NCBI GenBank assembly: GCA_902624465.1
Contig: CACNXP010000003.1
Span: 1 to 64,000 of the forward strand
Direction: 5' to 3'
DNA length: 64,000 nt
Source of the DNA: an uncultured Pelagibacteraceae bacterium
GTDB lineage: Bacteria; Pseudomonadota; Alphaproteobacteria; Pelagibacterales; Pelagibacteraceae
Below the pieces are notes generated by a model, which ran no database searches, had not been told where the DNA came from, and saw nothing but the letters and a program-made list of their open reading frames with translations. Every line of letters begins with the position of its first letter. Position 1 is the first letter of the stretch. A program made the position numbers and the translations under genes. This document shows, piece by piece, positions 15,690-34,822 of this stretch.

Positions 15690-17525
15690 TTACTCGTGAA
15701 AAAAATTATATATTTTTTTTGCAACTTTTGTTTCCACACCTTCAACTGATTTAATTTCATCGAGGCTAGCAGATTCTACGGCTTTTGCAGACCCAAAATG
15801 GTTTAATAACGCTCTTTTTCTGATTGCCCCTATTCCTTCAATTTGATCTAGCATAGATTTAGAAATACCCTTTTTTCTTTTTGCTCTATGAGCACTTATA
15901 GCAAATCTATGGGCCTCATCACGTATTCTTTGTAGAAAAAATAGAGTGGGGTCATTTTTCATAAATTTATACTCTCTTCCGTTATGAAAAAAAGTCTCAT
16001 TACCACTATTTCTAAATTTACCCTTAGCAATAGCTATAACTGGTATTTCATTTAATCCTAGCTCATTAAGTGTTTCTCTAGCGGATGAGTATTGTCCTTT
16101 ACCGCCATCAATTAAAACTAGATCTGGAAAACTTAAGTAATTACCTTTTTCTTGAATAGCTCTTTTAAATCTTCTTCCCAAAACTTCTCTAATCATACCA
16201 TAATCATCTTGTTTAAAATCTTCATTTTTAATATTAAATTTTCTATATCTCTTTTTTACAAAACCCTCATTTCCATAAGTAATCAAAGCTCCGACACTAT
16301 TTGTACCTTGAATATGACTATTATCATAAACTTCAATTAGACTAATAGGATTTTCAATATTAAATTTTTTTGCTATCTCGTCTAATAACTCTCTATTATT
16401 TTGATTTTCATAAAGATTTCTATTTAAGCTATTTTTCGCATTTTTAATCGCTAAGTTTATTACTTTTAATTTCGAACCTTTTTTCGCAATAGAAATATTT
16501 ACTTGTTTATTCTCTTTTTTAGTTAAGGTTTGTTCTATTAGTTTTTTTTCTTTAATTTCCTCGCTAAGTATAATTGATCTTGGGACTGCTTTATTTACAT
16601 AAAATTGAGATACAAACGAATTTAAAATATTATTTAATTTTTCATCAGGATCATGTTTTGGAAAAAAAGCTTGATTTCCCCAATTTTGTTTAGATCTATA
16701 AAAAAATACTTGAATACAAGTTTTTCCAGATTCTTTATAACCAGCTATTACATCTGCTTCATTAAGATTTACATCGCTTATAGTCAAAGAAGACTGTATT
16801 ATATTTAAAGATTTTATTTTATCTCTCACTATAGCTGCTTTTTCAAAGTCTAATTCTTCACTTGCATTTTCCATTTGAGTTGAAAGTGTTTGCTGAATTT
16901 TTCGAGATCTACCCTTACTTAAAAATTCATCAGCTGCTTCTACAAGTTTTGAATAATCTTCTTTATTGATTTTACCTCCACAAGGACCAGCACATCTTTT
17001 TAAGAAATAATTAAAGCAAGTCTTATCACCTGCCTCAACTTGTTTATCCGTGCAAGATCTAAGTAAAAAAATTCTTTGGAGAGTTTTAATTGCACTATTA
17101 ACTGCAAGAGAACTTGCAAATGGTCCATAATATTTTCCAGGTTTATTTTTAGCTCCTCTGTGTCTTTCGATGCGTGGAAATTCATGTTTTGAGATAAATA
17201 TGTATGGAAAGGATTTATCATCTTTAAGTAATATATTAAATTTGGGTTTATGTTTTTTGATTAGATTAGCTTCTAATAGTAACGCCTCGCTTTCATTTGT
17301 GGTTGTTGTAATTTCCAATCTAATTGTTTGAGAAAGCATTCTTTCAGTTCTAATTATGTGATTTTTTTCAGAAACATAACTTTTTAATCTATTTGGAAGG
17401 TTTTTGGCTTTTCCAACATATAAAATTTCATTTTTAGAATTTAACATTCTATAAACACCGGGTAATTTAGGTATTAAAGGTAATTCTTTTCTAATAACTT
17501 CTTTTCCAATTTCAGGACTTAGCAT
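15690..17525 (-). CDS. uvrC: Excinuclease ABC subunit C
   Basis: GIY-YIG domain [22 protein letters not shown], UvrC_HhH and RNase H-like DGGKGQ segments. Confidence 0.96.
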
Positions 17526-32778: not shown

Positions 32779-34605
32779 GTGGAGAGAATAATTACAAAAT
32801 CATTTGCCCGATTAATGGGTCGTGGAACTCACAGGGGTTTTATTACCCATGAAGAGTTGAGCAAATCTCTTGGAAAAAGAAATCTTTCTGATCAAAATTT
32901 AGCCCAAGCTTTTATTCACATATTAGATGAAAAAATTTCTTTAGTCGAAAAAAAATCAGACTTCAAAGTTTTGAGAAAAAAAGAGGGTTCCTCAAAAGAT
33001 GAAGGAAAAACTATCGAGAAAAGCGATGACCCAATTCGAATGTATCTTCGAGAAATGGGAGGTGTTGAACTTTTATCTAGAGAAGGTGAAATTGCTATTG
33101 CTAAAAGAATTGAAGCTGGAAAAGATGTAATGTTAATTGCACTATCTCAAAGTCCAATTACTGCACAACAATTTTCCGAGTGGAATGAAAAACTTCAAAA
33201 AGATGAGATTTTGGTAAGAGAAATTATTGATATTGATACTAACTACATGGAGGATGAAACTACTGGCCCTAGTGCAAAACAAAAAAATTCAGGTGAAGCC
33301 GAGAGTGATGATAATTCAGGTGACGAAGGTGATGAGGACTTTAATCCAACATTAGCTGCAATGGAGACAGAGATAAAACCGAAAGTTTTAAAAACTGTTT
33401 ATAAATTAACTAAAGATTATAATAAATTAATCAAATACCAAAAAGAAAAATTAGACTGTATTCTTACCTCAAAAATATTTTCTCCTGCAAAAGAAAAAAG
33501 TTATGAAAAAATTGTAAAAGATATTCTAGAAGATATCAAATCTCTCCAATTATCCCCATCAGTTTTAGAAGGATTAGTTCAAAAGCATTATATAGAAAAT
33601 AAAAAAATAATTTCATTAGAGGGAAACCTTATGCGGTTAGCTATAGATCATAAAATTCCAAGAAATGAATTTTTGAAATTTTACGTAGGAAATGAAATTA
33701 ACCCAAATCTTAAAAAATTTTTAGATACTAATTTAATATGGAAACAATTTTTTTCTAAAAATAAAGACAAGTTTAAAGATATTCGTGAAAGATTAATTGA
33801 ATTTAGTCATAAAATAGGAATGTCTGTAACAGATTTCAAAAAACTTGTAAGTAGAGTTCAAAAGGGTGAAAAAGAGTCAAGAATAGCAAAAAAGGAGATG
33901 GTAGAAGCTAACTTAAGATTAGTTATCTCGATTGCCAAAAAATATACCAATAGAGGGTTGCAGTTTTTGGACTTAATTCAAGAAGGAAATATCGGACTGA
34001 TGAAAGCAGTAGATAAATTTGAATATAGAAGAGGTTATAAGTTTTCCACATATGCCACATGGTGGATCAGACAAGCAATTACAAGATCAATAGCTGACCA
34101 AGCTAGAACAATAAGAATTCCTGTTCATATGATTGAAACAATTAATAAAATTGTTAGAACTCAAAGACTAATTTTAAGTGAATTTGGTAGAGAGGCAACT
34201 CCGGAGGAATTGGCAAAAAAACTAAGGATGCCATTAGATAAAGTTAGAAAAGTTTTAAAGATTTCTAAAGAGCCAGTATCTTTAGAAAAACCCGTCGGCG
34301 ATGAGGAAGATAGCAGTTTAGGAGATTTTATAGAGGACACAAAAGCTTTAGCTCCTCTTGAACAAGCAATAAAATCAAATTTAGGAGAAGCTACTACTAA
34401 AATATTATCAACCCTGACACCAAGAGAGGAAAGAGTTTTAAGAATGAGATTTGGAGTTGGTATGAATACTGATCATACATTAGAGGAAGTTGGTTTACAG
34501 TTTTCCGTAACTCGAGAAAGAATTCGTCAGATAGAAGCAAAAGCGCTAAGAAAATTAAAACATCCTAGTAGATCAAAACAATTAAAAAGTTTCTTAGAAA
34601 GTTAA
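32779..34605 (+). CDS. rpoD: RNA polymerase sigma factor RpoD (sigma70)
   Basis: Regions 2-4: [42 protein letters not shown] start. Confidence 0.97.
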
Positions 34606-34615
34606 GATTTATTTT

Positions 34616-34690
34616 GGGCCGTTAGCTCAATAGTAGAGTACTGCATTGACATTGCAGGGGTAGTTGGAGCGTAACCAACACGGCCCACCA
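34616..34690 (+). tRNA. tRNA-Val(GAC) with atypical D- and T-loops
   Basis: Acceptor GGGCCGT/ACGGCCC, D stem GCTC/GAGT, anticodon arm CTGCA-TTGACAT-TGCAG, T stem GTTGG/CCAAC, encoded ACCA; T-loop AGCGTAA, D-loop AATAGTA. Confidence 0.85.
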
Positions 34691-34745: not shown

Positions 34746-34822
34746 GGGCCTGTAGCTCAGTTGGTTAGAGCAGTACACTCATAATGTATTGGTCCCAGGT
34801 TCGAGTCCTGGCGGGCCCACCA
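34746..34822 (+). tRNA. tRNA with CAT anticodon (elongator Met or Ile2/lysidine)
   Basis: Acceptor GGGCCTG/CGGGCCC, D arm GCTCAGTTGGTTAGAGC, anticodon loop CTCATAA, T-loop TTCGAGT, CCA encoded. Confidence 0.93.

Follow-up and report, generated by a model that had tools for sequence, protein, structure and literature searches.

The window, that is, the whole stretch of 64,000 nucleotides analyzed here, contains a gene for a tRNA-Val(GAC) between rpoD and a gene for a tRNA-Met(CAT). The features of this region, with the first letter of the window as position 1, are the following.

32779 to 34605, plus strand: rpoD, the conserved upstream neighbor in the window's genus (open reading frame; synteny in relatives).
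34616 to 34690, plus strand: tRNA-Val(GAC) with an alternative elbow and an encoded CCA (ARAGORN, RF00005, kept across SAR11).
34629 to 34635, plus strand: D-loop AATAGTA, with A15 at 34630, A18 at 34632, and G19 at 34633 (sequence).
34648 to 34650, plus strand: anticodon GAC of tRNA-Val (ARAGORN, sequence).
34658 to 34662, plus strand: variable loop GGGTA of tRNA-Val, with A48 at 34662 (sequence).
34668 to 34674, plus strand: T-loop AGCGTAA of tRNA-Val (sequence; the loop recurs in phages and other phyla).
34746 to 34822, plus strand: tRNA-Met(CAT) with a normal elbow, the downstream neighbor (ARAGORN; RF00005, 72.7 bits).

The ARAGORN call for tRNA-Val(gac) covered exactly 34616 to 34690, and the Rfam family RF00005 matched 34616 to 34687 with 53.6 bits (E value of 3.4e-10), above the cut-off of 29 bits. 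All stems are paired as an earlier, sequence-only reading of this stretch had described: the acceptor stem GGGCCGT/ACGGCCC at 7/7 positions, the D stem GCTC/GAGT at 4/4 including one G10-T25 pair, the anticodon stem CTGCA/TGCAG at 5/5, and the T stem GTTGG/CCAAC at 5/5. T33, the discriminator A, and the CCA are likewise present. In standard numbering, the D-loop reads A14 A15 T16 A18 G19 T20 A21 and the T-loop A54 G55 C56 G57 T58 A59 A60. A tRNA-Met(CAT) right after rpoD is kept in most of the SAR11 genera examined, and among these genera a tRNA-Val between the two occurs only in that of the window. Minus-strand matches to the Rfam families HPnc0260 and plastid-ycf2, which overlap the antisense of tRNA-Met, were below the cut-off and were discarded.

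An elbow composed of G18-Psi55 and T54-A58 is, to our knowledge, treated as near-universal. Within the tRNA-Val gene, the cloverleaf, the loop positions, purine 57, and the pair G19-C56 (G at 34633, C at 34670) are those of the canonical elbow, but positions 18-55 are A/G instead of G with U, positions 54-58 are A/T instead of U with A, the Levitt position 15-48 is A/A, and residue 60 is a purine, leaving no site for Psi55, m5U54, or Gm18. In the canonical arrangement, residue 18 is inserted between 57 and 58, where it touches 55 (PMC4810234), and the contacts given in reviews (PMC4810234, PMC7912444) are G18-Psi55, G19-C56, T54-A58, and R15-Y48. The sequence-only reading had recorded the T-loop AGCGTAA, the loss of G18-Psi55, and an apparent swap of T54-A58 to A54/T58, all of which were confirmed, and it had thought that a G19-C56 pair might survive, for which both letters are indeed retained. 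Its statement that the D-loop lacks G18G19 is correct for G18, which is replaced by A18, but not for G19, and it mentioned neither the Levitt position nor residue 60.

The sequence of this tRNA-Val is identical, letter for letter, in most of the same-genus genomes fetched, and the gene is usually located directly after rpoD. In divergent copies (relatives G001, G007, G009/G017/G034, and G191), the acceptor, anticodon, and T stems differ, always with compensation, and the loops are near-fixed apart from changes at positions 16, 57, and 59, a single T20A, and a single insertion in the D-loop. In an alignment of the stems of 13 distinct tRNA-Val sequences, three of them with normal loops, both partners were changed in 12 of 21 pairs, 100% of the cells were paired, and 0 of 500 shuffles did as well. 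Judged from these alignments, the gene is under selection. Because stem changes across SAR11 are compensated and the unusual loops are fixed, the tRNA is not a decayed one, and because the tRNA is identical in most same-genus genomes and both loops are kept in the divergent copies, the loops are not a chance occurrence. The comparison of the orthologous loci downstream of rpoD, which had been proposed as a check, thus yielded conservation and stem compensation instead of random stem decay, in agreement with the earlier view that the gene is not a pseudogene.

The complete genome of the relative G012 (1,343,202 bases, 32 tRNAs) possesses a sole tRNA-Val(GAC), which has the alternative elbow, and one other valine tRNA with the anticodon TAC and a normal elbow. 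A second, normal-looped tRNA-Val(GAC), to be sought according to the sequence-only reading, is thus not present in G012. In the long open reading frames of the window, GTT and GTC make up 503 of 881 valine codons (57%). Since this isoacceptor is the only one with the anticodon GAC in G012, it is probably charged with valine and used in translation, and the simplest role would be the ordinary decoding of GUU and GUC. The gene is likely to encode an ordinary, probably single-copy GUU/GUC elongator tRNA with a coevolved alternative elbow.

Positions 18 and 55 change together in SAR11. A pattern that requires a GCTC/GAGY D stem and combines A18G19 with G55C56 had matches in 308 of the 398 Pelagibacterales genomes. 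All 308 genomes belong to the family of the window; there was no match in the sister family of the order and none in 382 Alphaproteobacteria outside the window's family. The mixed states A18 with T55 and G18 with G55, each sought by pattern, were found in 0 of 297 family genomes. The tRNA-Phe(GAA) of SAR11 is also switched, with the D-loop AGGAGTA or AGTAGTA and the T-loop TGCGAAT or TGCGATT, and so is the tRNA-Thr(GGT) of G012; both tRNAs combine A18 with G55 but retain T54 and A58. In the genome from which the window comes, the site is L154 (G000:C22:3675-3725) for tRNA-Phe(GAA); in G012, the sites are G012:C1:1127230 and 1131490 for tRNA-Phe(GAA) and tRNA-Thr(GGT). The tRNAs of G012 were distributed to 29 with G18-T55, 3 with A18-G55, and 0 in a mixed state (Fisher test, P = 2e-4).

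A tRNA-Val(GAC) with normal loops was found by pattern in 10 of 297 family genomes, and G210 is one more genome of this kind. In G082 and G210, this normal-loop tRNA-Val(GAC) is located at the same rpoD locus and has the same acceptor stem, which indicates that the 18-55 and 54-58 positions switch together. Both genomes were placed among A18-G55 genomes on a tree of rpoD, and this suggests that their normal loops are the result of a reversion or, alternatively, that A18-G55 was gained repeatedly. These two tRNAs (L606 and L608) have normal G18-T55 and T54-A58 letters with reversed Levitt letters, C15/A48 and T15/G48, which are perhaps the trace of a reversion from A15/A48.

The switch is not a SAR11-only oddity, an explanation ruled out by scans of GTDB genomes and of IMG/VR viral contigs. 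In the GTDB scan, a T-stem letter was set to leave out most SAR11 genomes, and the matches listed include Elusimicrobia, Verrucomicrobia, Planctomycetota, Patescibacteria, Micrarchaeota, Bathyarchaeia, Woesearchaeota, and others; nearly all of the parsed ones were well-paired tRNAs. The elbow type of SAR11 tRNA-Val (AGCGTTA or AGCGTAA plus A18) occurs in tRNA-His of Daviesbacteria and another Microgenomates bacterium, in tRNA-Ile(GAT) of Verrucomicrobia, and in tRNA-Phe of Gribaldobacteria, and the 18-55 switch as such in ordinary Phe, Thr, Ile, His, Ala, and other tRNAs. Among the viral contigs, A18 was combined with AGCRT in at least 120 and G18 with AGCRT in none, and the viral AGCRT tRNAs had 14 different anticodons. 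A18 with TGCRA was present in at least 120 viral contigs and G18 with TGCRA in 12. A18 with TTCRA matched in 74 contigs, many of the parsed ones being other D-loop types such as ...GAGTA, and a true mixed state of this kind exists in a few phage contigs. A blastn search with tRNA-Val against plasmids and phages gave no match.

Unselected tRNAs, meaning those outside the pattern selection, gave the same result when compared by Fisher tests. At the GTDB loci, with ambiguous D-loops omitted, G55 was accompanied by A18 in 129 and by G18 in 5 tRNAs, and T55 by G18 in 118 and by A18 in 1; at the viral loci, the ratio was 198:10 (A18:G18) for G55 and 1930:9 (G18:A18) for T55. These covariation counts are not phylogenetically independent, but with so many phyla and isoacceptors involved, a repeated origin of A18-G55 is suggested. 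The sequence-only reading had suspected that both sides of the elbow contact changed together, and with a complete 18-55 covariation in SAR11 that recurs across phyla and phages, the case for coevolution appears much stronger than that reading could know.

Further positions are linked to the switch at 54-58. Residue 60 was a purine in 94 of 94 distinct AGCRT tRNAs versus 69 of 2275 TTCRA tRNAs, and a canonical G15-C48 or A15-U48 was present in 3 of 75 AGCRT tRNAs versus 300 of 349 in the TGCRA class. The recurring elbow types are U54-A58 with A18/G55, A54/U58 with A18/G55, and A54/U58 with G18-U55, and judging by these types, the elbow of tRNA-Val is one of a few recurring solutions and not a random mix. 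The T-loop ATCRT, A54/T58 together with T55, was seen in 46 distinct tRNAs (for instance, L262, L268, and L275), and the examples shown have GG in the D-loop; a 54-58 swap may thus occur without the 18-55 switch. In eukaryotic tRNA-Ala, R15/A48 and A54/A58 are always found together, with a linked change at 48, 54, and 60, and according to PMC7566577 neither bacteria nor archaea have this combination. SAR11 tRNA-Val shares A48, A54, and purine 60 with it, but residue 58 is an A in tRNA-Ala and no 18-55 change is reported there (PMC7566577), whereas SAR11 tRNA-Val has T58 and A18/G55.

From the observed covariation of 18 and 55, we infer the following geometry. A18 would still slot between 57 and 58 and would pair with G55 as a sheared G-A in place of G18-Psi55. 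G55-C56-R57 with A18 as the fourth residue would form a composite GNRA-type turn, the purine at 57 being retained as such a turn would require. G19-C56 would still cap the elbow, and the outer face read by the ribosome and RNase P would remain unchanged. In tRNA-Val, A54-U58 would close the triloop. It could do so by Watson-Crick pairing, in which case the 54 strand would be displaced, and this might account for the changes at 15/48 and 60. With U54, U55, and G18 gone, this elbow cannot rely on m5U54, Psi55, or Gm18. The arrangement resembles the UGNRA type R1 lonepair triloop, or T-loop motif, of rRNA and riboswitches, in which it is common for an A from outside to bind the G of the triloop, yielding a composite GNRA tetraloop (PMC2258182). 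tRNA-Val has the G at position 2, the purine at position 4, and A18 as an available outside A, but not the U at position 1 and the A at position 5, its closing residues being A..U instead of U..A, whereas SAR11 tRNA-Phe and tRNA-Thr fit fully; another difference is the location of the motif within a tRNA. The A18-G55 elbow was rated as a variant of the T-loop/elbow motif and not as a separate category.

The D-loop and T-loop may alternatively form a short ordinary helix from G19-C56, a U20-G55 wobble, and neighboring pairs, with no intercalated A18-G55. T20 is usual in SAR11, and by sequence G19-T20-A21 of tRNA-Phe could pair with T54-G55-C56. However, the position that covaries with 55 is 18 and not 20, residue 20 is itself freely variable (T20A in G022 and C, A, or G elsewhere), and the next pair in tRNA-Val would be A21-A54, so that such a helix is unlikely. 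Zagryadskaya, Kotlova, and Steinberg reportedly found with laboratory suppressor tRNAs carrying re-selected D- and T-loops that alternative contacts can support function. Such suppressor tRNAs, among them ones with a D/T-loop helix, come from selected libraries, whereas the elbow of SAR11 tRNA-Val is natural, conserved, and widespread. Alternatively, the elbow may simply have been lost and be floppy with weakly constrained loops, as in many mitochondrial tRNAs. The conserved letters G18, U55, U54, and A58 are indeed all gone, but the replacement letters are fixed across diverged SAR11 bacteria and recur in unrelated phyla and phages, G19, C56, and purine 57 are retained, and mixed 18-55 states are missing in SAR11, which makes a floppy elbow quite improbable. 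tRNA-Pyl and mitochondrial tRNAs without GG and TPsiC have lost or rebuilt their elbow, often with altered arm sizes (PMC7609411); they share the missing canonical loop letters with SAR11 tRNA-Val, in which, by contrast, arms of standard size are combined with a retained G19-C56.

The sequence-only reading had considered a specialized or non-translational role, with evasion of EF-Tu, as in the Staphylococcus tRNA-Gly species for peptidoglycan synthesis. These non-proteinogenic tRNA-Gly species have lost the canonical GG and TPsiC letters, and SAR11 tRNA-Val resembles them in this respect. It differs in being a conserved and covarying isoacceptor that has no duplicate, looks essential, and retains G19-C56. 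In the complete genome of G012, it is the only GAC-Val and does not accompany a normal isoacceptor for the same codons. GTT and GTC account for most valine codons in the window, the T stem of tRNA-Val is fully paired, and elbows of this type exist across phyla in tRNAs for Phe, Thr, Ile, His, Ala, and other amino acids. A non-translational function is thus very improbable. Finally, the probability of a mutated, decayed, or misassembled gene is practically negligible, and this explanation was rejected on the basis of the same loops in hundreds of genomes and the 12 compensated stem pairs.

The A18-G55 elbow may be connected to the fate of TruB, the Psi55 synthase, whose gene is otherwise near-universal. 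In a survey of relatives, to which the window's own genome (63% complete) did not belong, Pfam TruB_N was not found in the same-genus genomes G012 (complete), G067 and G062 (both single-contig), G082, and G210, nor in one g8 genome, G076. It was found in the SAR11 genomes G061, G191, and G037 and in 14 of 14 control genomes. The truB gene is located between rbfA and rpsO in G061 and G191 (L628 and L629 for comparison), while in G012 the end of rbfA is only a few bases from rpsO and truB is cleanly deleted (G012:C1, L690, about 16434-17040); tblastn of TruB across the whole G012 genome gave no significant match. Pus10, the enzyme that makes Psi55 in archaea, is not known from Bacteria (PMC7912444). 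With truB absent and Pus10 not bacterial, the TruB-less Pelagibacter-type cells are probably without Psi55, and an elbow independent of Psi55 would be favored or no longer disfavored. The TruB substrate T-arm is given as 53-GUUYRANYC-61 in PMC7912444, and the arm of tRNA-Val, which reads GAGCGUAAC, departs from it. Loss of TruB in Pelagibacter-type SAR11 would have removed the benefit of U55 and thereby favored or permitted the switch in Val, Phe, and Thr. As a driver of the switch, TruB loss is plausible, and the evidence is suggestive only: TruB is present in G191, yet its tRNA-Val is switched, and TruB is absent from G082 and G210, yet their tRNA-Val loops are normal, so that the link is a loose one.

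No description of the A18-G55 elbow was found among the open-access papers searched, and it does not come up in the searched passages of reviews on T-loops and non-canonical tRNAs. Tentatively, A18-G55 may be regarded as a second, repeatedly evolved, modification-independent elbow of bacteria, archaea, and phages, which possibly spread with the loss of TruB and Psi55 in Pelagibacter-type SAR11 and of which A54/U58 plus A15/A48 plus purine 60 would be the fully rewired version. It would be a natural elbow replacement with covarying positions, located in a tRNA that very abundant ocean bacteria apparently cannot spare, and it suggests that the interior of the elbow can be rebuilt while the G19-C56 face for the ribosome and RNase P stays in place. 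The truB deletion would connect the switch to genome streamlining and leads to the testable claim that the most conserved tRNA modification is dispensable for some free-living cells. There would also be consequences for tRNA finders and for design rules in which TTCRA and GG are obligatory.

Dense tRNA arrays with nearly all members carrying G55 (for instance, 24/25, 13/14, and 18/18) were also observed in metagenome-assembled contigs of Verrucomicrobia and Planctomycetota and in viral contigs (L180, L182, L191, L193, L206, L207, L515, L564, and L594), and several of these arrays adjoin TROVE/Ro60 or RtcB RNA-repair genes. A search for the trn tRNA operon of Anabaena, covering parts of the plasmids delta and gamma, did not find it. 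Plasmids of Nostoc and Tolypothrix (L703 and L704) carry arrays of about 20 tRNAs adjoining an HNH endonuclease gene; the loops in these arrays are mostly normal, and A18 pairs with G55 in Glu(CTC) and, in L703, additionally in Met.
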